Assembly (NCBI GenBank): GCA_902500805.1
Contig: CABVSA010000010.1
Span: 1-64,000, forward strand
Reading direction: 5' to 3'
Source of the DNA: an uncultured Nitrospira sp.
GTDB taxonomy: Bacteria; Nitrospirota; Nitrospiria; Nitrospirales; Nitrospiraceae
DNA: 64,000 nt
This document shows, piece after piece, positions 31,226-43,743 of the stretch; the first letter of the stretch is position 1, and every line of letters starts with the position of its first letter. The position numbers and the translations under genes were made by a program. The notes under the pieces are model-generated. The model searched no databases and was not told the DNA's origin. It worked only from the letters and a program-made list of their open reading frames with translations.

Positions 31226-32644
31226 TTACGGGTTGCGCAATTCCTCTATTCGTCCTTTCGCCCTGGCAAGATTCACCCGCGAGGCATGCACGCGGAACAG
31301 GGCATCAATCATGTTGTCTTTCGCCCGGACAAGGGAGAACAACGCATTCGACAACTCCAATGTATTCGAGCTCAAGGTTCGGATACGCTCGCGAGCCAGC
31401 CCCACTTCGGTCATGGAGGCTTTGAGACCATCTTTCGCGATCCGCTGCTGTTCGAGTGAGGCCTTCAGGGTCACCAGCGCGTCCCGAACTTCCATCCCGA
31501 TCTGGTTCTTCACCAGATCTAGTTTGTAGGCCTCCTGGTTATATTCACTCACACTCTGCCCGATGCGGCCTTCCCGTTGTCCTCCGTCAAAAATCGGAAT
31601 CGACAGCTGAACTCCGACGTTGTAGGTCCCGGTATTGTTTTCAAATCGATTGCCGATCAATCCGTAATTGCCTTCCGCCGACAGCGAGGGAAGCCGCTCC
31701 CCTTTGATCGAACGCAGACCCAATTCCGCCGTTCTGATCCGTTGCACCTGGGCCTTAAGCTCAGGTCGCTCGGTGCCGGCTGCCTCCAACGCACCGTGAA
31801 GTGAGGGAAGCGCCCCTTCGTAGGCCTTCAGTGAATCCGTGAGTTGAAGCGACAGGTCATATCCGATCCCGATGGAGTTCAGCAGCATGAACTTGGCCCG
31901 CTCGACCTCGCCCTTGGCCAATTCAAGGCGCTGCCGTTCATTCTCGAGTTGTGATTCCAATCGCGCCGCGTCGAGGCCGGTTGCCATCCCACCCACCTGC
32001 CGGTTTTTGACGAACGCCACCAGGTCCTCATAGAGGGCCACATTGGCCGTTCGCGCATCGACCGTGTCCTGGTAGCGCAGCACCTCGAAGTAGGACAGAG
32101 CTACCTTCGCCACCGTGTCGTTCTCGGTGGTGGCTGAATCCAGCTCGGCCACCTGTAGGGCGGACCGCGAGGCCCGCCACCGTTCGATCAAACTTAAACT
32201 GAACAGGGACTGAGTAAAGGAGGCGCGGCCGTCGACGATATCGAATGGGTCGGTCCTCACCGGCCTTCCACCGATGGTACCGAGGAAAAACGTTTGGTGG
32301 TTGTACTTACCAGCGGCGGCCACATTCGGAAGAAGCGCACCCAATTGCGTGCGGGTGGCCGCGCGCGCGGCCTCAATTTTTTCTCGATATAAACGGATGT
32401 TGGGACTCTTGCCGAGCGCCAACTCGATAGCCTCCGCCAGCGACATCTTCAGCACCGGCGGATTCTCTGGCGGCAGCGGAAGCGCAACACCCTCTTGCGC
32501 CCGTACCGCCATACCGGTCGCGCACAGCCACGTCAGGACGACAATACCCATGAGGGCTCGACGAGGAATAATGAGCCCCCATGTTCGTCCCCGCGATGAT
32601 TCCACCCCTCGGCCCGTCACCCGAGATGGCGCTCTGCCTCTCAT
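31226..32644 (-). CDS. TolC-family outer-membrane channel protein
   Basis: A 472-residue TolC/outer membrane efflux protein. After a signal-like stretch (MGIVVLTWLCATGMAVRAQ) come two OEP repeats: the first around MSLAEAIELALGKSPNIRLYREKIEAARAATRTQLG and the second around VQLSIPIFDGGQREGRI, with long heptad-rich helices between them. Such trimers form the outer-membrane duct of secretion and efflux systems. AGGAGGGAG precedes the ATG. It is the last gene of the secretion locus, 12 bases after the adaptor gene. Confidence 0.93.
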   Translation of the reverse strand: MRGRAPSRVTGRGVESSRGRTWGLIIPRRALMGIVVLTWLCATGMAVRAQEGVALPLPPENPPVLKMSLAEAIELALGKSPNIRLYREKIEAARAATRTQLGALLPNVAAAGKYNHQTFFLGTIGGRPVRTDPFDIVDGRASFTQSLFSLSLIERWRASRSALQVAELDSATTENDTVAKVALSYFEVLRYQDTVDARTANVALYEDLVAFVKNRQVGGMATGLDAARLESQLENERQRLELAKGEVERAKFMLLNSIGIGYDLSLQLTDSLKAYEGALPSLHGALEAAGTERPELKAQVQRIRTAELGLRSIKGERLPSLSAEGNYGLIGNRFENNTGTYNVGVQLSIPIFDGGQREGRIGQSVSEYNQEAYKLDLVKNQIGMEVRDALVTLKASLEQQRIAKDGLKASMTEVGLARERIRTLSSNTLELSNALFSLVRAKDNMIDALFRVHASRVNLARAKGRIEELRNP

Positions 32645-32656
32645 CGAGTCTCCCTC

Positions 32657-33547
32657 CTATTTCGCCGTCTGAAATTTCACGGTGCAGGCCAGTCCAGCCG
32701 GCAAGGCGTTATTGGGATTCGGCATTTCCAACCGAACCCCGAACGTACCGCTCGCGCTGTCGACCACGCGATTCACCACGGTCACATGCGCTTGATAGGT
32801 GGCTGAGCCGCCGCCTTCCGGATGTACGTCCGCTTTCATGCCGAGTGTGATTTTCCCCAGCAGGCTCAACGGCGCAAAGACTTCGATGCGCAGCGGATTG
32901 ATCTGCGCCAACTTCAAGATCGGCGTTTTGCCGGCCAATTCACCGGGAGACAAGAGCCGGTCGACGACGACACCAGTCAGCGGGCTGGAAATGGTACGGA
33001 GCTGCAACGCCGCCGTAGCTCGTTGCCACTCCAGTCCATCGATCTGTTTCCTTTCCGTCGCCTCTAGATATGCAATGTCCGCAAGATTTCGTTCCGTCTC
33101 GGCTTCATCGAGTTCATGCTTTGCAATGGAGTTTGACTTAAACAGATCCGTCGCCCGACCAAGCTTTCTTTCACTGAAGGCCATCTTGGCCTGCGTGCTT
33201 TTGATCGTCGCCTCCGCTTCTGCCTTCGCCTTCGCCAGCGCAACCGTGGACTTTTCCACGCTCGCCTCCAGTGCGACCACAGCTTGCCCCTTCGTCACCC
33301 AATCGCCCCGTTCGACATGCACCGTCTGGATGATGCCTTCGACCGGTGATCCAATGGACACTTCCATAAAGGGTTTCATGATGCAGGCCAGATTGTCGGA
33401 GGCGTCACTCGCCGTAAGCCCGCCACACCACCCGATAACCAGACAGAGTGAAACCCGTATGACGGAGCCACAAGGACGCAACCCGTTCCTGACAGATCTG
33501 ACGAACGACTCTGAATCCATCCTCACCATCGCATTCGCCCCCATCAT
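32657..33547 (-). CDS. periplasmic adaptor (HlyD/membrane-fusion type)
   Basis: A 296-residue adaptor. It has an N-terminal hydrophobic segment (VIRVSLCLVIGWCGGLTAS), a biotinyl-lipoyl-like half (GSPVEGIIQTVHVERGDWVTKGQAVVAL), a coiled-coil hairpin (AKAKAEAEATIKSTQAKMAFSERKL) and the second lipoyl half plus beta-barrel (LTGVVVDRLLSPGELAGKTPILKL). It should bridge inner-membrane components and TolC. Its ATG overlaps the SecA-like stop in the arrangement ATGA, and the TolC gene follows after 12 bases, so the three are almost certainly co-translated. Confidence 0.92.
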   Translation of the reverse strand: MMGANAMVRMDSESFVRSVRNGLRPCGSVIRVSLCLVIGWCGGLTASDASDNLACIMKPFMEVSIGSPVEGIIQTVHVERGDWVTKGQAVVALEASVEKSTVALAKAKAEAEATIKSTQAKMAFSERKLGRATDLFKSNSIAKHELDEAETERNLADIAYLEATERKQIDGLEWQRATAALQLRTISSPLTGVVVDRLLSPGELAGKTPILKLAQINPLRIEVFAPLSLLGKITLGMKADVHPEGGGSATYQAHVTVVNRVVDSASGTFGVRLEMPNPNNALPAGLACTVKFQTAK

Positions 33548-35535
33548 TCCACCCGTCCCGAAAACGCCAGCGTGGATTCGAGTTGGTCTTCATGCTGAAG
33601 CAATTCCCGGCGCATACGGGCATGCAGCCGTTCCGCCGACCGTTGGGCCACACGCACGAGCCATTGCGCTGGCCATCCTTGCAAGGGTGTCCCTGGTTTC
33701 AGGAGCAGTGAGGCAACCCACCGGATGACCGCCCCCCGAGAGGCGACCAACAGTTCATCTTCCAAGGACGTCACGGTTTCGTAACTGCCGGGATCTCCTT
33801 GCCGGCCGGTCCGCCCGTAGAGCTGCCGATCGATCCGTGCGGCTTCGTGCCGTTCCGTCGCGATCACATGCAGCCCGCCGGCCTGGGCCACGGAACGAAG
33901 CAGTTTGATATCAGTACCGCGCCCCGCCATGTTCGTCGCCACCGTGACTCGTCCGGACTCACCGGCTGCGGCCACGACCCCAGCCTCCTCCTGATCTTGC
34001 CTCGCATTGAGTACGACATGCCCAATCTTCGCTCTGGTTAAGTGTTCACTCAGAATCTCAGAGGCCTCAACCGACCTTGTGCCGACAAGAACCGGGCGTC
34101 CCTGTTCCCGCAAGGCTCGGATCCGCTCCACAACCGCTTCCCACTTCTGGTCCGCCGTGGCGAACAAGCGCTCCCCCATCCACCGGCGCTGAAGCGGGCG
34201 ATTCGTCGGAACCCTCACGGTCGCAAGTCGATAGACGGCCCATAGTTCACCGGCCACCTCCTGTGCGGTGCCGGTCATGCCGGAAAGCCAGAGATAACGC
34301 CGAAAAAATCGCTGATAGGTGATGCGCGCCAGCGGCCTGTTCATCGGCGTCACCGGACATCCTTCCTTCAACTCGATCATTTGGTGCAGCCCATGTTCCC
34401 AGGACCGATCTCCCATGACACGTCCTGTATATTCATCGATGATCTGCACCTTCTCACCGCGGACAAGATAGTGCACATCGCGTTGAAACAGATGGAGCGC
34501 CGTCAACGCCTGCCGAACCAGCTCTTCCCTCCGCCTCGGTCCCGACCAGAGACCTGTGAGCCCTACCGCCCGAGTGGTGAGTGTGGTTTGCCCGCTTGAC
34601 GTGAGCCGGATGGTTCGCTCTCGTCCGTCCAGAGAGAAATCCTGCCCCCTCACCAAGCCGCGAGCCAGCGTCAACGCCGTCTCATAAATATCCCTTTCCG
34701 GCACGTCACCCCCGACCCCGGAAATGATCAAGGGCACCCGCGCTTCATCTACCAATACACTATCGGCTTCATCGACGATGCCGAAACACAAGCCCCGCAA
34801 GACCAACTGCCGCACCCGCGCCGCATCGCCGTACAGTTGCTCCAATTGAAGTTGGATACGATTCGGCTGCCGCCCGACCGCCAACCGGTCTCGGAGATAG
34901 TCGAACGCCAGTTCTTTATTGCAGCAGTACGTCACGTTGCAGCCATACGCACTCCGTCGCGCGACCGGATTGAGCTCATGGATCACGGCTCCGACGCTGA
35001 GTCCGAGCATCTCATAGAGCGGAGCCATCTCACGGGCATCCCGGCCCGTCAGGTAGTCGTTGACTGTGATCACATGGACCGGCACCCCAGCCATCGCAAC
35101 GGTTGCCGCGGCCAAGGTCGCGGTGAGCGTCTTGCCCTCTCCCGTCGCCATTTCCGCGATGCAACCGTTCAGCAAGACCCACCCACCAAGAATCTGCACG
35201 TCATAGTGCCGTTGCCCGAGCGTGCGGTGCGCCACTTCCCGGATCAGGGCGAAGGATCGACACACCCGCTCCTCCAAAAGACCATCCCGCCGCAAACTTT
35301 GACGCAATTGCGTCGCTCGTTCAGTGAGCTGCTCATCCGACAGCCTTACAAGCTCGCGGCCCTGCGTGGCCACCTGTTCGACAATCGTTGTGTTTCGACA
35401 CAGTCGCACTCGATGCCGACGCAGTAGTGGACTGACCACGCGAGCCCCTTGCCGGTCGAACCAACCCTCCTGGGGGACAGATCGTTCCGGGTAAGCACTG
35501 TGTAACGCCGTGCGTTCGCGCGCCAGATCAAACAT
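33544..35535 (-). CDS. SecA-like ATPase lacking the two-helix finger and C-terminal domains
   Basis: A 663-residue SecA paralogue. Walker A is MATGEGKTLTATLAA (about 129-143), then ITVNDYLTGRDAREM, DEADSVLVDEAR (DEAD box at 255), QIIDEYTGRVMGDR, SGMTGTA, LVGTRSVEASE, NMAGRGTDI and ERHEAARIDRQLYGRTGRQGDPG. So both RecA-like domains are complete. A somewhat shortened preprotein-crosslinking region lies at 274-348. After LEDELL only about 65 residues remain; SecA's helical wing, two-helix finger and zinc-binding tail are missing. Housekeeping SecA is normally 830-900 residues. Its start overlaps the M50 gene by eight bases and its stop overlaps the adaptor ATG. Confidence 0.93.
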   Translation of the reverse strand: MFDLARERTALHSAYPERSVPQEGWFDRQGARVVSPLLRRHRVRLCRNTTIVEQVATQGRELVRLSDEQLTERATQLRQSLRRDGLLEERVCRSFALIREVAHRTLGQRHYDVQILGGWVLLNGCIAEMATGEGKTLTATLAAATVAMAGVPVHVITVNDYLTGRDAREMAPLYEMLGLSVGAVIHELNPVARRSAYGCNVTYCCNKELAFDYLRDRLAVGRQPNRIQLQLEQLYGDAARVRQLVLRGLCFGIVDEADSVLVDEARVPLIISGVGGDVPERDIYETALTLARGLVRGQDFSLDGRERTIRLTSSGQTTLTTRAVGLTGLWSGPRRREELVRQALTALHLFQRDVHYLVRGEKVQIIDEYTGRVMGDRSWEHGLHQMIELKEGCPVTPMNRPLARITYQRFFRRYLWLSGMTGTAQEVAGELWAVYRLATVRVPTNRPLQRRWMGERLFATADQKWEAVVERIRALREQGRPVLVGTRSVEASEILSEHLTRAKIGHVVLNARQDQEEAGVVAAAGESGRVTVATNMAGRGTDIKLLRSVAQAGGLHVIATERHEAARIDRQLYGRTGRQGDPGSYETVTSLEDELLVASRGAVIRWVASLLLKPGTPLQGWPAQWLVRVAQRSAERLHARMRRELLQHEDQLESTLAFSGRVE

Positions 35536-37675
35536 TGAATCGCGCCAGGAAGAGCTGACGTCCCTGCCGATACCATTGAGCTGCTAACGATGCTCGTCCG
35601 TGATCGAATCGCACATAGACGCGCCCACCGACGTTGAGAAGGCCATGCTGCAGCGGCAGCGCCACATCGATCTGGAACAGTTTCTTCATCGCCGTGTGCC
35701 CCTTCGCATCCTGTGGATCCAGCGGCACCTGTCCCCCACCTTCGCTGCCCAAGGCCGGACTCGGCAGCTCGTCGCTGGCCGCCGGCACCAGGCGTGAGAT
35801 CGTCGCCAGCATCGGGTCGGTCAACCGCTCCGTCAGTCGCACTTCCACGGCATGGGTCTGATGCCGAATCAAGTCAATATCACCCTGATCGACAACCGTA
35901 CGGACGGTCATCGTCTTGAGGTCCACGACATGAGCCAGCACATCACCTCGCTTCACAAATCGCCCTGGCAGATCCTCAGCCTTCGGAAGAATGAACGTCC
36001 CTGCCACCTGACTTCTGATTTCCAGTTCCGACTGTCGCTCCTTCGCCCGAGCCAAACGCTCTTCGATGTACCGCTGCTCTTCTTCCAGCATTTTGGCCTT
36101 CACCAGGTTGTCGACGAGTTGCTCTCGCACCCGCGCTTTGATCTCTCGCAGTTGCCCCTCAAGCACCTTCACATCTGTATGGACCACGGGGTCTGAGCAG
36201 ACCACGAGCAGATCGCCAGGGTGGACCGGTGAACCAGGCGCCGCCACGACCCGTTCAACAAACCCATCGACCTGAGCTCGCACAAAGGCCTCATCGGGAA
36301 TCCACACCACACCCTCGGCTCTAGTCCGGAACGGCGCCGGAAGAAGCGTCAGCACGACCATCACCCCGGCGACCAGCGCCAGGCTGGCGGCCACGGCTCG
36401 CCCACGCACCCGTCTGATCCTGGGGCTGGTGAACAAATAGTGGATGCCCTTCCCAAGCGGGAGCACAAACCAGGTGCCGGCCGTCACGACCGCGAAGATG
36501 ACACCCAAGAAAAATAACTGGGCCGTGAGATAGAGGAGAATGGCGACGACGACCACCACCCGATAGATGAAGGATGACACGGCGTAGGTGATGAACCATG
36601 CCCGCTCGCCTTGGGTCGCCTGAGGCACCGGCGCATCGTCTCGCCCGAACAGGTATCGCTCACAGAGATACCCGAGATACGTATTGGCACGTTGACGGAG
36701 ATTCGGAATTTCCAGAAAGTCCGCGAGAATGTAATAGCCGTCAAAGCGCAGGAGTGGATTGGCGTTGAAGATGACCGTCGAGATGCCGGCGATAAAGATG
36801 GTGTTGTAGGCGAGCGTTCTGACCGTACCCGGTTCGACGCTGACCCACACATAGACGGCCATCGCGGCCAGCACCAATTCCACGATCATCCCTGCGGCTC
36901 CGACGACCACGCGCTGCCATTTATCGGCGAACGCGGACGAGGCGGAGGCCTCCACATAGGGCACCGGTGAGAGGACCAGGAGCATGATCCCCATGTCATG
37001 CACCTCACCCCCGAACACTTTTACGGCGAAGGCATGGCCGAATTCATGCAGCGCTTTGATCACCGGAAAGAGCAGCCATAACAGGACAAGATTCTGCGGC
37101 GCGGTGACACGATCAATCAGATCCGCAGTGAGGTCGGACCAGTGCGCGGCACCGAGTAAAACAGCCGGGCCGACGATCAGACACCAGAGGACCGCACCCC
37201 ACCAGGAAAAGAAGGGGCGGACAAGCGGGGCCCCCTGCTGCAAAAACCGTTCAGGGTCAACGAGGGGAAACTGCCAAGCGAAGATACTCATCAACCGCTT
37301 CTGCCACTTCCGCTGTTGCTGTTTATCATGGCGAGCCAAGAGCTCGGATGTATCTGGAGGAATGTCACACTGCAACACATCCGCGGCATGAAGTTGACTC
37401 AGCAGTTGGACCACATCCGGTTGAGTCGGCGCATGGTCTCCAAGCTTGGTCGAGCAACGCTCCCATAGGTCCTGGACGGAGTGCGTGCCGTCCATCAGGC
37501 CGATGAAGGCGAACGCGGCCGGAGTAAACCGGTGGAATCGCTCGTTCGCTCTGTCTTGTAGTACATACCAAATCCGTCCGCGATAGCGATGCCGATGCAG
37601 CACAGCATGACTACGAAGCCGCGGGGTCAGGGACGCTACGCGATACCAGGAGGGACTAAATAACGCTTCAGACAT
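35528..37675 (-). CDS. PqqD-like / M50 membrane metallopeptidase-like / HlyD fusion protein
   Basis: A 715-residue membrane protein. Residues about 15-105 look like a PqqD/RRE-type peptide-binding domain (RGRIWYVLQDRANERFHRF, a LMDGTHSVQDLWE helix). Residues about 155-420 form a polytopic M50 (site-2 protease-like) core with HEFGHA at 210-215 and NANPLLRFDG at 304-313, so zinc ligands appear intact. After another helix near 430-445 comes an HlyD-type adaptor: lipoyl half GFVERVVAAPGSPVHPGDLLVV, a coiled coil at 505-555, a second lipoyl half. The ATG has no Shine-Dalgarno; a hairpin repeat ends three bases upstream. It overlaps the SecA-like gene by eight bases. Confidence 0.92.
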   Translation of the reverse strand: MSEALFSPSWYRVASLTPRLRSHAVLHRHRYRGRIWYVLQDRANERFHRFTPAAFAFIGLMDGTHSVQDLWERCSTKLGDHAPTQPDVVQLLSQLHAADVLQCDIPPDTSELLARHDKQQQRKWQKRLMSIFAWQFPLVDPERFLQQGAPLVRPFFSWWGAVLWCLIVGPAVLLGAAHWSDLTADLIDRVTAPQNLVLLWLLFPVIKALHEFGHAFAVKVFGGEVHDMGIMLLVLSPVPYVEASASSAFADKWQRVVVGAAGMIVELVLAAMAVYVWVSVEPGTVRTLAYNTIFIAGISTVIFNANPLLRFDGYYILADFLEIPNLRQRANTYLGYLCERYLFGRDDAPVPQATQGERAWFITYAVSSFIYRVVVVVAILLYLTAQLFFLGVIFAVVTAGTWFVLPLGKGIHYLFTSPRIRRVRGRAVAASLALVAGVMVVLTLLPAPFRTRAEGVVWIPDEAFVRAQVDGFVERVVAAPGSPVHPGDLLVVCSDPVVHTDVKVLEGQLREIKARVREQLVDNLVKAKMLEEEQRYIEERLARAKERQSELEIRSQVAGTFILPKAEDLPGRFVKRGDVLAHVVDLKTMTVRTVVDQGDIDLIRHQTHAVEVRLTERLTDPMLATISRLVPAASDELPSPALGSEGGGQVPLDPQDAKGHTAMKKLFQIDVALPLQHGLLNVGGRVYVRFDHGRASLAAQWYRQGRQLFLARFNV

Positions 37676-37678
37676 ACA

Positions 37679-37756
37679 GTTTCACGTTTCAAGTTTCATG
37701 TCTCAAGTGACCGGCACGTTCCCCAACCTGAAACCAGAAACATGAAACACGAAACT
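37679..37756. repeat. GTTTC/GAAAC hairpin repeat, copy b
   Basis: The left arm GTTTCACGTTTCAAGTTTCA and the right arm CTGAAACCAGAAACATGAAA can form a long imperfect hairpin. It fills most of the 115-base gap between the GAF-HlyD stop and the M50-HlyD start, ending three bases before the M50-HlyD ATG (minus strand). Confidence 0.75.
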
Positions 37757-37790
37757 CCTCCGCCGAATGCGCTTCACAGCCGTTCCCATA

Positions 37791-39698
37791 TTAGGGTAGC
37801 CACGTCCAGAGAGTGAGTCGCATCCAATCCACAACCTGATGTGTCCAGATCCAGATCAACGAACGCCGATCGATTTCGATCTTCCCTGCGCCTTCCATCG
37901 CCGGACGCAAGCGGTCATGCGGCTGATCGAGGGCCGCTTCCACACGGAAGAAATTGCGCCCATCCTTTGCCGTCGAGACGGGTGTCATCTTGGCAACCGT
38001 GACCCCCACCGGGTCAGACGGAAAGGCCGAGAGCAACAGCTGCCCGTGCTGGCCCACCTGCACATCGGCAATGTCGCGCTCGTCGACCTCCAGCACCACT
38101 CGATAGCGGTCGAGCGGGGCAATCTCGAACAGCACCTTGCCCTTTTCAACCGGTGAACCCAGCGACTGGCTCAGGTCTCCGCTGACGATGATCCCATCGA
38201 ACGGCGCCAGCAGGCGCGTGTGTGCGAGTTGATCATCAACGAGGGCAAGTTCCGACTCCACCTGATGCATCTGCGCGGTGGCAATCTCGACCTTGGCGGC
38301 CTCCCGCTCGGCCATCGCCTTGTGATACTCCTTGCGATACTCTTCGAGCTTGCTCGCAGACTTCAGACGTTCAAGCCGTAATTCTCGATCATCGAGCGTA
38401 CAGAGGACATCGCCCACACGCACCATGTCGCCAGCTCGAAGAGGCGCCTCTCGGATATAGCCGTTGAAGGGAGCCGCAGCCGTCCGTTGAACGATCGGCT
38501 CCAAGACCGTCTTGGTCGAGACACGATAGTCGCCCTCCGCTAGCAGATAGAAGAGCACGAGGCCTGCGAGAGTCACGGTCGTCAGCTTCAACGCCACATA
38601 ACTGGGGCCCAGCAGGTCGTGACCATAGCGAGTGAGAGCATCCCAAACTTTGGCCCCGATCCACCGATCGTCACGACGATGGATCTCCAGCACCGGACCG
38701 GTGAGCGCCGCTACCGACCGGCAGAGCACCACACTCTTGTCGTCGAACGGTCGTTCCTCCGGCCGTTCCAGCAAGAGGGCGCCGACGACCTGCCCGCTCG
38801 CTTCCAACGGCACGCACAACAGTGCGCCGCTCCCATGGTCTTTGGCAAACGCCTCGTGGGCCAGCATCACAACCGATGCTCCTTCTGCCGGCGGAGGGAA
38901 GACGATCGTTTCACGTTGATCAATCGCCTCATCCATCGCTTCGGCCAACCCACGAATCACATTGGTCTGGGCTTTGAATTCAGCACTATGGGACACCGCG
39001 GCCACGCAGGCGTGGCCGCTCTTGACGAACCCGAGACTCACCCGGTCGCAGGCAAGGCTTGTTGCCAGCGCATTCACCAACGCCATGGCTGAGGCGTAAA
39101 ACCGGTCATGCCCGACGGCCGTGGCGACCAGATCCAGCGCCGCTTGAATTCGCTCACGTGTGTGTATTTCGAGCGCCACCGTTTCCCGCGCGAACAACAG
39201 TTCGAGCCAGGCAGCCCCCCACTGCAGCCGTCGCATCAGCTTCTCAAGTTCGGTCCCTGATCTCGGCGTAACTTCCAGCACAACGGCGCCATGGAGCGAA
39301 CCGCAGACCTCGATGGGATAGCCGAGTTCGCTGGGGCCGTTCTGCGTCCCTCCCTCAGTCGGCTCACCACACACAACAAGACGCCGCCGTTCTGCCAACG
39401 TGCGCTCAGCGGTATGGGTGAGCTGTGTCAGATGCTGAAGCTCTACTGGCCAGATCGCTACGGGAGAGAAGGGACCACGATCAGCCGGGCCGAAGAGCAC
39501 CATGCCCGCCTGTACGCCCTCGATCATTCGGCATTGCAACGCCAGCCAGTTCCGGCAAAAGTCCTCAATGGTAGTGGCCTTGGCAAAGGCAGCCCAGAGC
39601 GCCTCCTCCTGGGTTGCATCGGCTTGCGCCAGCGTGGCGACAGACGCGTTCGCTTCCACCTTCTGACTTACACGCTGTGAGCTGACCTGTTCATTCAT
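37791..39698 (-). CDS. tandem-GAF sensor fused to HlyD-type adaptor
   Basis: A 635-residue protein. Residues about 40-165 are GAF-like, and about 185-340 form a clearer GAF domain (YASAMALVNALATSLACDRVSLGFV, ALLCVPLEASGQVVGALLLE). A single membrane helix at about 367-386 (VALKLTTVTLAGLVLFYLL) separates these from an HlyD adaptor: lipoyl half FNGYIREAPLRAGDMVRVGD, a coiled coil at 440-490, second lipoyl half LLAPFDGIIVSGDLSQ, and a barrel domain. GAF domains would be cytosolic, the adaptor periplasmic. This architecture suggests a ligand- or redox-gated secretion component. The M50-HlyD gene follows. Confidence 0.9.
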   Translation of the reverse strand: MNEQVSSQRVSQKVEANASVATLAQADATQEEALWAAFAKATTIEDFCRNWLALQCRMIEGVQAGMVLFGPADRGPFSPVAIWPVELQHLTQLTHTAERTLAERRRLVVCGEPTEGGTQNGPSELGYPIEVCGSLHGAVVLEVTPRSGTELEKLMRRLQWGAAWLELLFARETVALEIHTRERIQAALDLVATAVGHDRFYASAMALVNALATSLACDRVSLGFVKSGHACVAAVSHSAEFKAQTNVIRGLAEAMDEAIDQRETIVFPPPAEGASVVMLAHEAFAKDHGSGALLCVPLEASGQVVGALLLERPEERPFDDKSVVLCRSVAALTGPVLEIHRRDDRWIGAKVWDALTRYGHDLLGPSYVALKLTTVTLAGLVLFYLLAEGDYRVSTKTVLEPIVQRTAAAPFNGYIREAPLRAGDMVRVGDVLCTLDDRELRLERLKSASKLEEYRKEYHKAMAEREAAKVEIATAQMHQVESELALVDDQLAHTRLLAPFDGIIVSGDLSQSLGSPVEKGKVLFEIAPLDRYRVVLEVDERDIADVQVGQHGQLLLSAFPSDPVGVTVAKMTPVSTAKDGRNFFRVEAALDQPHDRLRPAMEGAGKIEIDRRSLIWIWTHQVVDWMRLTLWTWLP

Positions 39699-39824
39699 GA
39701 TTTCGGCATCAACTCCTCGACCACTTTCGCAAATCCCATCTCACTGGCGATCCCGACGTCCGCAACCACACGCTAGTTCCTCCGACTGCTTGACAGCAAT
39801 CTCATATTGAGATACCCTTGCAAC

Positions 39825-40112
39825 GTGCACGTCATCACGCGGAGGAGACTGGTCGAATTCGCAAAGGTTCATCCGGATGCGCGGACTCCGCTGCAACACT
39901 GGCTTGCGATCGTCCGAAAGACCGCCTATGAGTCCTTTGCCGGTCTGCGGGTCACATTCCCATCCGCGGATCAAGTAGGCCGGTTTACCGTGTTTAATAT
40001 CGGCGGCAATAAGTTTCGGCTTATCACCGCCATCCATTACAACCGGCAGAAGGTCTACATCCGGCATGTGCTCACGCATGCCGAGTACGACCGAGGCGCC
40101 TGGAGAACCTGA
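39825..40112 (+). CDS. higB: HigB-family toxin (mRNA interferase)
   Basis: A 95-residue RelE-superfamily HigB protein. It begins VHVITRRRLVEFAKVHPDA, has the central GRFTVFNIGGNKFRLIT segment and ends in IRHVLTHAEYDRGAW, all family-typical. HigB cleaves ribosome-bound mRNA. The start is GTG 39825; a TTG at 39807 gives six more residues that do not fit the family. The antitoxin gene starts three bases after its stop, toxin first as in HigBA. It is on the plus strand, between the GAF-HlyD gene and the LEPR-XLL gene of the minus-strand locus. Confidence 0.9.
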   Translation: MHVITRRRLVEFAKVHPDARTPLQHWLAIVRKTAYESFAGLRVTFPSADQVGRFTVFNIGGNKFRLITAIHYNRQKVYIRHVLTHAEYDRGAWRT

Positions 40113-40115
40113 TTG

Positions 40116-40586
40116 ATGCTCGCTAAATACATCCACGACGTCAACACCAAGTACCGTCGCATTCGTCAACGAATTCCTTTGGGCCGGTTGCATACTAAAG
40201 AGGAATACGACCGAGCAGTGACCGTCCTCGATGCCATTCTGGACGAAATCGGCGAGCAGGAAACCCACCCCCTCGCCGACTTGGCTGAGACCTTGGCCCT
40301 CTCGATCGAGGCCTACGAAGACACGCACGTTGCCATACCCGACGCCTCAGGACCTGACATTCTCCGCGGCCTGATGGCGGAACATGACCTCGCGCAAACC
40401 GACATGCCCGAGATCGGCAGCCAGGGTGTGGTGTCGGAAATCCTCTCCGGTAAACGCGATCTGAACGTCCGTCAAATTGCCCGGCTCGCGGTACGGTTTG
40501 GAGTGTCGCCCGCTCTGTTCATACCATCCTCTCCCGTCACACCTCGACGCAGCAGGACCAAAAAACTCAACAGGCGCGTCAGCTAG
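40116..40586 (+). CDS. higA: HigA-family antitoxin
   Basis: A 156-residue protein. A long N-terminal region (AKYIHDVNTKYRRIRQRIPLG, DEIGEQETHPLADLAETLAL) binds HigB in this family; the C-terminal XRE-type helix-turn-helix lies at about 85-140 (LRGLMAEHDLAQTDMPEIG, VSEILSGKRDLNVRQIARLA). It neutralises HigB and represses its own promoter. ATG 40116 is used; a TTG at 40113 also fits. The gene follows higB directly. Confidence 0.9.
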   Translation: MLAKYIHDVNTKYRRIRQRIPLGRLHTKEEYDRAVTVLDAILDEIGEQETHPLADLAETLALSIEAYEDTHVAIPDASGPDILRGLMAEHDLAQTDMPEIGSQGVVSEILSGKRDLNVRQIARLAVRFGVSPALFIPSSPVTPRRSRTKKLNRRVS

Positions 40587-40806
40587 TCCAACGCTTCTCT
40601 CAATACTTGCAAACCAGGCCTCTTGAGAGACGCTTCACCTTGCTTCATCGGGTAGGCGCGTTCGGACGGGGACCAACACCAGGCGCAAACGCCGGGACGG
40701 GTGTCAGTCCCCTTGTCTCGCTTCACGAGATACGCTTCACCGTTCAGCCGTTCGACAAGCTCATGGCCCTGAGCATTATCGAAGGGCACTTCCTGCCCCG
40801 AGTCCC

Positions 40807-40919
40807 AAGTTTCAGGTTTCTCGTTCGAGTGTCGGGTTTCAAGCTTTCAGACAACTTCAAACTCCCACGCTTCTCGCGTGGCGCTTCCCGCTTCACGAAC
40901 GACGCATCACGCTTCACGT
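40807..40919. repeat. GTTTC hairpin (copy c) and GCTTCACG words
   Basis: The 40587-40926 gap between higA and the LEPR-XLL gene has no gene. It contains CAAGTTTCAGGTTTCTCGTT and GGGTTTCAAGCTTTCAGACA, partner-like to other GTTTC hairpins but poorly paired, and reiterated CGCTTCACG words (40719-40740, 40889-40919), also seen next to the copy at 54673. Confidence 0.55.
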
Positions 40920-40926
40920 CTTCTCC

Positions 40927-43743
40927 TCACGCCGTCACGGTAATCGTCACCGTCGCCAGGTTGGACTGGAGGGCACCATCGCTAGCTCGGTAGGTGAAGG
41001 TATCCGTACCAATGAATCCTGCATTGGGCCGATAGGTGAACGTGCCGTTGGCATTCAACGTCAGCGTGCCCTTGGTCGGACCAGTCACCAGCGCAGCCGT
41101 TATCGGATTGCCGTTCGGATCGCGATCGTTGGACAGGACATTGCCGTTGAGAAGAGCATTGGCCTGCCCCCCGACCTTCCAAAGCTCATACCCAGTGCTA
41201 GCCTGATAACCACGGAAGAAAACAGTGCCGTTCACATTGATAAGTTCCTCCAGTTGTACTCCAGCCATGACCTGCTTGGTCCCGGCCACTGTGCCATCAC
41301 TCTTCCATAGTTCACTTCCAGTAGTGTAGAAAGCTATTCCATTGACATTGATAATCCCAGTGGCAAAACTTCCCGGACCACCAGGAGAAGTCAGTGCAAC
41401 AGTCCCCGCCTCGGTCCCATTGCTAACCCACAAGACTGAGTAGCCAAACGTATTGGTACTCCTGAAAAAGAGTTTTCCACCTACGTTACTTAGGGTATCG
41501 GGGAACGCCGGAAGTGAACTGGGTGTCCCAGGATTAATGTCCTTGACCAGGACTGTTCCCGCTGCCGTCCCATTGCTCTTCCACAATTCCCGCCCATTGA
41601 TACCATTATCGGCGGTGAAGAACAGCGTGCCGTTCATATTCGTGAACTGGGTAGGAGTCGAAGTTTGAAACCCAGTCCAAATATCTTTGACCAGAACAGT
41701 CCCCGCAGCTGTACCGTTGCTTTTCCAGAGCTCATACCCTCCTACTCCATCATCAGCAGCGAAGAACAATGTCCCGTTGACAGCAGTCAGCTCTCTTGGA
41801 CTCGAACTGCTCCCAGAAGCAATATCTTTCACCAGTACCGTACCCGCTGCTGTCCCATCACTCTTCCAAAGTTCTAAGCCACTAGAGTTATTAAATCCTG
41901 CGAAGTAGAGCGTGCCATTGATATTCACGATGGTGAAATCCGGCAGAACGAAGAGTCCATCTCCCAACCCCAGACTGATATCCTTAACCATGACCGTCCC
42001 AGCCGCCGTGCCGTTGCTCTTCCAGAGTTCGTGGCCATTGAGCCCATTATTTCCAGCGAAGTAAAGTGTGCCGTTGACATTGATAAAGGCATTGGGCACA
42101 CGCATGAACCCAGACCCGGCCCCAGGATTGATATCCTTAACCAGCACCGTGCCAGCCGCCGTCCCGTTGCTCTTCCACAATTCCCGCCCATGGGCCGCCG
42201 TTTGGGCGGTGAAGAACAACGTACCATTCACATTCGTGAGATGCATAGGGTCCGAGCCGCTGGTCCCAGCCACAATATCCTTCACCAGCACCGTGCCAGC
42301 CGCCGTCCCGTCGCTCTTCCAGAGTTCGTTGCCAATTCCATCCTTAAATGCCGTAAAATAAAGCGTGCCATTGATATCCACGAGATCAGTCACTAAATTG
42401 GTAGGGGGAAAACCTATCGGCCTGGAACCAGCCGGACCAGGGTTGATGTCTTTGACAAGCCCTGACGCCCCACCTTTTGACAGCGTAAACGCATCATTCG
42501 CCGCGATAGGTGCTAGATTCGTCAAATTGGTCACGAAGTGGCTATCCCCCGTAGTGCTCTTCGTCTGCCCCGCGAGCAGATAGGTCGTTGGCTTCGTCGG
42601 CGAAATGAAACGACTGTCCGCACTCAGTGTCCCTTGAATCTTGATGCTGCCGATCCCAGTGGGCGTGCCGGTGACAAACCGGTCATTCCCATTGCCAAAG
42701 GTCCCATCCACCGGGTTGACGCTGACCCGCACCGTACTCCCGGTCATTGAGCCGGTCAACACGAGCGCACCAAGACGCCCCAGGCCATAGGTATCGAGAT
42801 TGGTGCTCGTCCCGCCCAGCTTCCCATCTTGCCCCAACGTCGTTCCAATATAGAGCTTCGCGTTCGTCAGATTGCGCGCGGTGAAGGTGGTGATGGATTT
42901 GGCGGCAACGTTCCCGCCGAGTACATCGCCGAGCGTGAGCGTCGTGATGGTCCCATTGATCGCCACCGTCCCGTTCACATCGGTCGTCGCAGCGGTGAAC
43001 GAGGCGAGCGGTGCCACGGCATTCACATCATTCAGCAGCACCCGCCCATTGCCACCGCTGGTGGTAATCAAAACCGCAGAGGTGGTCGTCGTACCGGTAA
43101 GCTTCAGATCCCAGTTCGTGCCGTCTTTGACGACGGTGCCCACGCCTGGGCCCGTCAGTCGAAACGTCACGGCGGTGCCATCGGCATCACGCAGCGTGAG
43201 CACGGTGTTGCCGGTTCGCCCTGGGACCGCCCCGAATTGCCAGGCCACAGTAAAGGTCGGCCCCACCTTTACATTGTTGGCCTCTCCAACCGTACCTTCG
43301 GCCACGACGTTGGTCGCATCCACCCGCGAGAGTAACTTATACGTCCCGGCGGCCAAGGTATTGGGCATCGCCAGGTTGACCAGCACATTACGAGACGATC
43401 CGGCACTGAGGGCAGTGGTGGTCGTCGTGCCGAGCAAGACATCCGACGTGCTGAACGTACTATCGGTCGAGGCATAGACGCGGACTTGCGTCGACACAGT
43501 GGCCGCCGTTGTTCCTTGGTTCTTCACTTGAACCGTCGCCGTTTCAACGTTCGTCGGCACGCTGGGATCCGCCAGCGTATGGGCGGTCACGAGACCGGTC
43601 AAATCGGCCGCGAGCAAGATGCGGCCTTCCAGCGCTTCCACCGTGTACTCTGACTCTGGCCGTGGTGCCGCAGCTGGCCGCGTCCCCCGTTGTAACCCTG
43701 CGACCCATTTTCGGATTCTTGAACCCACCGTCACATCGTGCAT
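40927..43743 (-). CDS. secreted LEPR-XLL protein with ELWxxDGT repeats
   Basis: A 938-residue protein. A basic N-terminus leads to the LEPR-XLL motif as LEGRILLAAD (38-47). Residues about 50-167 form a CARDB-like domain, about 168-405 a beta-rich region. Residues 409-425 (NLAPIAANDAFTLSKGG) start a cadherin-like/tandem-95 domain whose remainder is at 860-938 (LLNGNVLSNDRDPNGNPITA). Between them lies a block of ELWKSDGTAAGT repeats starting near 473, 521, 572, 624, 671, 719, 780, 811 and 853. There is no ordinary signal peptide. It is likely an exported surface or released protein. AAGGAG lies six bases before the ATG. It is the upstream gene of the secretion locus. Confidence 0.9.
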   Translation of the reverse strand: MHDVTVGSRIRKWVAGLQRGTRPAAAPRPESEYTVEALEGRILLAADLTGLVTAHTLADPSVPTNVETATVQVKNQGTTAATVSTQVRVYASTDSTFSTSDVLLGTTTTTALSAGSSRNVLVNLAMPNTLAAGTYKLLSRVDATNVVAEGTVGEANNVKVGPTFTVAWQFGAVPGRTGNTVLTLRDADGTAVTFRLTGPGVGTVVKDGTNWDLKLTGTTTTSAVLITTSGGNGRVLLNDVNAVAPLASFTAATTDVNGTVAINGTITTLTLGDVLGGNVAAKSITTFTARNLTNAKLYIGTTLGQDGKLGGTSTNLDTYGLGRLGALVLTGSMTGSTVRVSVNPVDGTFGNGNDRFVTGTPTGIGSIKIQGTLSADSRFISPTKPTTYLLAGQTKSTTGDSHFVTNLTNLAPIAANDAFTLSKGGASGLVKDINPGPAGSRPIGFPPTNLVTDLVDINGTLYFTAFKDGIGNELWKSDGTAAGTVLVKDIVAGTSGSDPMHLTNVNGTLFFTAQTAAHGRELWKSNGTAAGTVLVKDINPGAGSGFMRVPNAFINVNGTLYFAGNNGLNGHELWKSNGTAAGTVMVKDISLGLGDGLFVLPDFTIVNINGTLYFAGFNNSSGLELWKSDGTAAGTVLVKDIASGSSSSPRELTAVNGTLFFAADDGVGGYELWKSNGTAAGTVLVKDIWTGFQTSTPTQFTNMNGTLFFTADNGINGRELWKSNGTAAGTVLVKDINPGTPSSLPAFPDTLSNVGGKLFFRSTNTFGYSVLWVSNGTEAGTVALTSPGGPGSFATGIINVNGIAFYTTGSELWKSDGTVAGTKQVMAGVQLEELINVNGTVFFRGYQASTGYELWKVGGQANALLNGNVLSNDRDPNGNPITAALVTGPTKGTLTLNANGTFTYRPNAGFIGTDTFTYRASDGALQSNLATVTITVTA
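41167..42468 (-). repeat. tandem ELWxxDGT-encoding repeats nested in a tandem-95 domain
   Basis: About eight copies plus a degenerate ninth, mostly 47-52 codons apart, encode FTAxxGxxGxELWKSxGTAAGTVLVKDI-like units. Copies keep high DNA similarity in the ELWKS-GTAAGT-LVKDI part, for example AGTGTGCCATT and CCAGCCGCCGTCCC words on the plus strand. The block interrupts the sequence of a cadherin-like domain. Confidence 0.85.

Follow-up and report, generated by a model that had tools for sequence, protein, structure and literature searches.

What a cassette of export genes carries out of the cell, by which signal it recognizes its substrate and with which motor it moves it, are the questions raised by a locus in the window examined here, a stretch of 64,000 nt from a Nitrospira genome. 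Genes for a TolC-family channel, HlyD-type adaptors, an M50 membrane protein and an ATPase resembling SecA lie in this locus next to a gene for a large protein with a LEPR-XLL motif close to its N-terminus, and the evidence brought together below suggests that this motif probably addresses large surface proteins to a SecA-type protein exporter. The features on which the argument rests are the following, with positions in the window:

31226-32644, minus strand: TolC-family outer-membrane channel (OEP), 472 aa; open ORF and OEP profile
32657-33547, minus strand: HlyD/RND-type periplasmic adaptor, 296 aa; open ORF and HlyD profile
33544-35535, minus strand: SecA-like ATPase, 663 aa, with DEAD motor, PPXD, NBD2 and the start of the scaffold helix; SecA_DEAD, PPXD and SecA P-loop profiles
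35528-37675, minus strand: PqqD-M50-HlyD protein (M50-HlyD), 715 aa, with seven predicted membrane helices and a MacA/MexA-like C-terminal adaptor domain
37346-37675, minus strand: PqqD-like N-terminal domain of M50-HlyD, residues 1-110, a candidate tag reader
36740-37048, minus strand: M50 zinc-site region, residues 210-312 (HEFGH ... NANPLLRFDG)
37791-39698, minus strand: GAF-HlyD protein, 635 aa, with a GAF N-terminal part, a TM segment at about 365-388 and an HlyD C-terminal part
39807-40586, plus strand: HigB toxin gene and probable antitoxin, opposite to the cassette; HigB PF09907, 4e-30
40927-43743, minus strand: putative cargo, 938 aa, with a LEGRILLAAD tag, CARDB, 8 ELWxxDGT and a C-terminal Big_9
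43588-43644, minus strand: LEPR-XLL tag of the cargo; 21.5 bits in the genome search

The six minus-strand genes singled out by an earlier, sequence-only reading of this DNA all correspond to open ORFs, and their domains were assigned through Pfam and NCBIfam profile searches. The coordinates also agree with the compact packing which that reading had described for the last four: the M50-HlyD and SecA-like genes overlap, as do the SecA-like and HlyD genes, and 12 bases separate HlyD from TolC. The GAF-HlyD gene lies 115 bases upstream of the M50-HlyD gene, and between it and the cargo gene stands the HigB/antitoxin pair; given this inverted locus, cargo and cassette do not form one transcript here and are only neighbours. 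An ORF at 39741-40328 on the minus strand, considered as a possible cassette gene, was rejected as the shadow of the inverted pair. The intergenic stretches 37680-37790 and 40640-40930 contain many imperfect short repeats, among them gtgaagcg and gaaacttgaaac. Domain profiles detected no ABC or RND/MFS family in the cassette or in the flanking window genes scanned, in keeping with the earlier remark that the locus has neither an ABC nor an RND gene, and no second SecY was seen within the cassette.

Machinery of this kind has been described before. In the part of their paper available to us, Kamneva, Poudel and Ward (2015, PMC4452313) report a conserved secondary SecA_DEAD / T1SS-related locus that comprises a truncated SecA, M50-HlyD, GAF-HlyD, HlyD/biotin_lipoyl and sometimes OEP proteins; in their proposal SecA was already the ATPase and M50 a possible pore, and they reported no ABC transporter and described the broader biological role as completely unknown. 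The published locus and that of the window share a SecA_DEAD protein without all or most of SecA_SW as well as M50-HlyD, GAF-HlyD and HlyD neighbours, and one published member is from Nitrospirae. The machinery model is thus a rediscovery of the 2015 proposal; the cargo link is absent from the available part of that description, in which cargo, tag, PqqD domain and SecA-less sister class are not named. What lies beyond both the sequence-only reading and the available text of PMC4452313 is a SecA-less sister class with its own tag, and a PqqD domain heading an M50 protein that has kept its zinc-protease residues. The literature searched, mostly without subscription papers and without bioRxiv preprints, held no earlier link involving LEPR-XLL, PqqD+M50+HlyD or SecA and giant proteins.

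An alignment of M50-HlyD proteins was used to scan an 84,980-species genome collection, and the loci with at least 43% identity yielded a set of 80, distributed over Nitrospirota, Rokubacteria, Methylomirabilota, Myxococcota, Thermodesulfobacteriota and Alpha-, Beta- and Gammaproteobacteria; the closest M50-HlyD among them, from Nitrospira sp. RSF12, is 90% identical. Gene order in related loci is usually [cargo], GAF-HlyD, M50-HlyD, SecA-like, HlyD and (TolC). The same gene content in most of the 80 loci, across several phyla, places the gene set far beyond chance, and the five-part set for which the sequence-only reading had proposed a search is thus conserved across phyla. Phyla are intermixed in the M50 tree, which suggests that the gene set has been transferred between lineages, and the distances of SecA-like and M50 proteins are correlated (r 0.85, 39 loci). 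The sequence-only reading had regarded a constantly present, unrelated ABC exporter as incompatible with its model; an ABC motif scan found no linked ABC exporter in more than 100 related loci, and the motif was present in only two of the 80, both times in separate genes. Cassettes of the window's type are called class A below, and those of the SecA-less sister class, class B.

The link between this cassette and LEPR-XLL cargo, originally drawn from one locus, extends to many genomes. Of 29 genomes with the system, 27 show LEPR-XLL matches, 26 of these exceeding the cut-off, and the ORFs concerned reach 19,202 aa; among 14 control genomes, 1 has a match. Deinobacterium chartae, taken as a control whatever its cassette status, gives a LEPR signal. 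When both profiles were searched over the same genome sample for each clade, LEPR-XLL was found in 29 of 43 Nitrospirota genomes with M50-HlyD versus 3 of 203 without (ORFs of at least 300 aa; p 7e-24) and in 27 of 52 versus 3 of 312 gammaproteobacterial genomes (at least 20 bits; p 3e-23), while in Alphaproteobacteria tagged giant ORFs of at least 1500 aa occur in 6 of 13 genomes with M50-HlyD versus 0 of 276 without (p 2e-9), it being understood that only a few candidates from each genome are scored in the first pass of the search, which could leave cassettes in 'negative' genomes undetected. Since the genomes are related, these Fisher p-values are too small, and the recurrence in three clades together with physical linkage is the stronger argument. 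Thirty of 45 LEPR hits in Nitrospirota lie at most 15 kb from an M50-HlyD gene, and among the 57 loci with enough upstream sequence 30 carry a same-strand ORF of at least 600 aa that ends no more than 2.5 kb upstream of GAF-HlyD; in nine the distance is at most 200 bases. Roughly a third to half of the genomes with the system lack a LEPR hit above the cut-off, and LEPR ORFs are also found where no cassette was detected, as in genomes G671 and G297 (contig-end cases), G267, G286 and several Alphaproteobacteria (below 1100 aa); the clearest counterexample is the gammaproteobacterial genome G806 (loci L235-L236), which encodes a protein of 7,373 aa with the tag LEQRLLLSTSPL and in which M50-HlyD went undetected. 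Taken together, enrichment in three clades, usually beside M50-HlyD, makes it very probable that tag and cassette constitute one functional export unit.

The tag of the window cargo is borderline when considered alone, the LEPR-XLL profile (NF012209) giving 16.9 bits in hmmscan and 21.5 in the genome search against a cut-off of 17. This protein has no hydrophobic signal peptide, and a profile search with this cargo identified Big_9 at its C-terminus and no RTX family match. Tags are found at residues 14-95, behind a basic stretch, mostly as LEPR-x-LLSAD with an acidic residue before it (class A consensus LExRxLLSAD), and the best 15-residue N-terminal hydropathy has a median of 1.18 in tagged proteins versus 2.08 in TolC proteins, with overlapping ranges. 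The strict motif occurs within the first 130 residues of 39 of 1,628 non-cassette ORFs, with 0.08 expected from shuffled N-termini; as this set, which includes a few duplicates, was fetched around cassette or LEPR hits, the figure speaks against a chance motif and not for a frequency of linkage. ELWxxDGT, put forward in the sequence-only reading as a possible marker of neighbouring genes, was dropped as a common cargo feature: it is specific to the window cargo, the giants examined have DUF4347, cadherin or Big repeats together with the tag, and it is the N-terminal tag that they share. DUF4347 (PF14252) stands behind the tag in one class B giant (L016) and one class A giant (L115), and its position in both classes indicates that it may form part of the export signal region.

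The structural model of M50-HlyD (pLDDT 85.6) begins with a beta3-alpha3 domain, continues with seven membrane-type helices and ends in a MacA/MexA-like domain (Z about 15), an arrangement that, with basic loops inside, would leave the N-terminus in the cytosol and the HlyD part in the periplasm. A fold search with the full model tested the HlyD end only, and PqqD was therefore tested by profile: PF05402 matches 52 of 52 M50-HlyD N-termini (best E 8e-9; the window copy, at 0.0015, is under the Pfam cut-off), and the top PDB hit of the N-terminal domain is the solved PqqD 3g2b (E 0.004). The profile match thus supports the PqqD label that the M50 protein had received from the letters alone. PqqD/RRE domains bind RiPP leader peptides, and by analogy there is about an even chance that the PqqD domain is the tag reader. 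The zinc site, H210, E211, H214 and D312 (HExxH and a distal Asp), is invariant in 62 sequences, while the M50 Pfam score of the window protein is 26.8 against a cut-off of 27.2. The curated M50 family that comes closest is the daptide protease, NF041824, which matches residues 18-404 of the window protein (4e-48; 164.5 bits, below its 300-bit cut-off) and class B M50-HlyD at 2e-46, with a LiaK family match at 4e-10. We know of no seven-helix M50 protein that serves as a protein-conducting channel. The invariance of the zinc site makes a plain 'conduit' role too simple, and points to M50 as the probable tag cutter or entry gate.

In the SecA-like protein, SecA_DEAD, PPXD and the P-loop are matched by Pfam/NCBIfam profiles and SecA_SW is absent; the alignment goes no further than the beginning of the scaffold helix, and the helical wing, the two-helix finger and the C-terminal tail are missing. 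Canonical SecA uses the two-helix finger and the wing, both of which engage SecY. The model of the SecA-like protein (pLDDT 85) superposes on substrate-engaged SecA 6itc over 595 residues (Z 42, rmsd 2.6 A), and GEGKT (Walker A) and DEAD are kept in nearly all full-length members, observations that incline us, with some reserve, to regard it as a motor in the SecA class. At a second locus of Thioclava pacifica DSM 10166 (L221, 3794-5533), a class A M50-HlyD gene has as its neighbour the gene of a 579 aa SecA-like protein (SecA_DEAD 6e-15) that has diverged and lacks GEGKT; this protein is possibly an inactive SecA-like partner.

The genome from which the window derives contains two further M50-HlyD genes, which introduce the sister class. 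At one (C75) the order is TolC, HlyD, HlyD, M50-HlyD, near a protein tagged LESRLMFDAA, and at the other (C199) M50-HlyD adjoins a protein with an MFDAA-type tag; three more giants of the same genome, of >2,000, 3,087 and 5,532 aa, bear the class B tag type, which is LExRxMFD[AG]A as opposed to the class A LExRxLLSAD. In the tree, the M50 proteins of class B branch as a group of their own with good support, no SecA-like gene and, by motif scan, no linked ABC was found in the class B cassettes examined, and class-B-only Nitrospirales genomes that were searched hold canonical SecA only. Loss of the SecA-like gene from class A loci without a linked copy was considered and rejected, as five of the six such genomes searched carry one elsewhere, a count that leaves out the gammaproteobacterial class A loci L238, L239, L241, L242 and L245, which likewise have no linked copy. 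The notion of SecA as a constant companion holds for class A save one genome (G083, a MAG) and is rejected for the whole family by class B. The existence of a sister class without SecA-like protein implies that SecA is not essential to the family as a whole, and class B, if working, works without it, so that there would be another motor, one that class A may use as well. The earlier suggestion of a SecA ATPase feeding an M50 conduit is therefore retained in part: the gene set and the lack of an ABC gene favour it, whereas SecA is not family-wide, the M50 zinc site is invariant, and the idea itself had appeared in the 2015 paper.

In all 41 linked proteins the tag is of the class of the cassette, class A cassettes being accompanied by SAD-like tags (25/25) and class B by FD[AG]A (16/16), and genomes with both cassettes, including that of the window, have both tags. 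Such class-matched tags look like a specificity code, although common ancestry of cargo and cassette within each class would yield part of this match. Related ORFs resembling sensor kinases lie behind class B giants on two contigs (L016, 188-2113; L018, 1-1686).

From the association, the gene set, the tag classes and the domain content we infer a series of steps that covers tag reading, cleavage, motor, path and TolC exit. The cargo, which has no Sec signal peptide and in whose sequence a basic N-terminus is followed by LExRxLLSAD, would be bound through this tag by the cytosolic PqqD domain of M50-HlyD, in the way that PqqD/RRE binds RiPP leaders. The seven-helix M50 protein would anchor the complex and probably either cut the tag or gate entry, while the SecA-like protein, reduced to a motor and a substrate clamp, would drive the chain across the inner membrane, by a path that may lead via the M50 protein or via borrowed SecYEG; the candidate mechanisms are an M50 complex driven by SecA and a complex that borrows SecYEG. 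The three HlyD-type parts, judging from their families, would bridge to TolC and allow the cargo to exit in one step. In class B, with its LExRxMFD[AG]A tag, the motor would be a different one. As an explanation of the whole, a dedicated exporter for large surface proteins with an N-terminal LEPR-XLL tag is the one that we consider likely. That it represents a distinct Gram-negative one-step secretion family, in which a PqqD/RRE-M50 membrane protease reads the leader, tags follow a class-specific code and one branch has a truncated SecA replacing the ABC transporter, is a more tentative proposal, to which we give slightly less than even weight.

The foremost alternative, which we hold to be rather doubtful, is that the cargo crosses the inner membrane by the housekeeping route of SecYEG and canonical SecA. 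The cassette would then supply no more than a periplasmic and outer-membrane conduit and a protease, and the SecA-like protein, as chaperone or targeting factor, would pass the tagged chain on. Class B cassettes without SecA-like and ABC, and the canonical SecA as sole SecA of the class-B-only genomes searched, would fit this arrangement, as would the missing two-helix finger and wing and the want of a channel precedent among M50 proteins; tagged N-termini, however, are without the hydrophobic core of Sec signal peptides, with the caveat of overlapping hydropathy ranges, and nearly all full-length SecA-like members keep GEGKT and DEAD, as a motor would. It is also conceivable, if unlikely, that M50-PqqD acts chiefly in maturation, as a protease comparable to the daptide and epipeptide (YydH/LiaK) M50 enzymes that would process the tagged N-terminus, and that HlyD and TolC export the product with a pump encoded elsewhere. 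Such a role would account for the NF041824 and LiaK family matches, the invariant zinc ligands and the PqqD domain, but the fusion of HlyD to the protease ties processing to transport, and no linked pump appeared in the ABC motif scan of over 100 loci.

A very improbable reading is that LEPR proteins and exporter merely cluster as members of an adhesion island, with no substrate relation between them. The inverted HigB locus that separates cargo and cassette in the window and the unlinked position of some LEPR genes are what one would expect from such an island; against it, tag class tracks cassette class in every linked pair, even where both classes share a genome, and tag and cassette co-occur at genome level in three clades. 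The dedicated exporter remains the reading that we prefer.

The proposed exporter can be placed among known systems. Like type I secretion (HlyB-HlyD-TolC), it combines an adaptor with TolC and concerns large, repeat-rich surface proteins without a Sec signal peptide, but it differs in having no ABC transporter, an N-terminal rather than C-terminal conserved element and a SecA-type motor. Accessory Sec systems (SecA2-only, SecA2-SecY2) similarly devote a second SecA to particular cargo, whereas the present locus is Gram-negative, is coupled to HlyD/TolC and has a SecA that breaks off once the scaffold helix has begun. With the RiPP M50 proteases that carry PqqD/RRE (daptide NF041824, YydH/LiaK) it shares an M50 membrane metalloprotease and an N-terminal, leader-like substrate element; unlike these, it has HlyD fused to the protease, and its substrates are large adhesin-like proteins and not short peptides. 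LEPR-XLL and DUF4347 giants have the same N-terminal motif on large repeat proteins, which is tied here to two cassette classes, while the literature searched gave no secretion route for them.

For a locus of which PMC4452313 called the role 'completely unknown', there is now a probable class of substrate, a probable signal, a candidate reader domain and a SecA-less sister. The findings suggest a route for a large class of giant surface proteins that have no Sec signals and whose open frames reach about 19,000 aa, and they make it possible to test if TolC-linked export can be powered by a SecA-family motor with no ABC pump involved.
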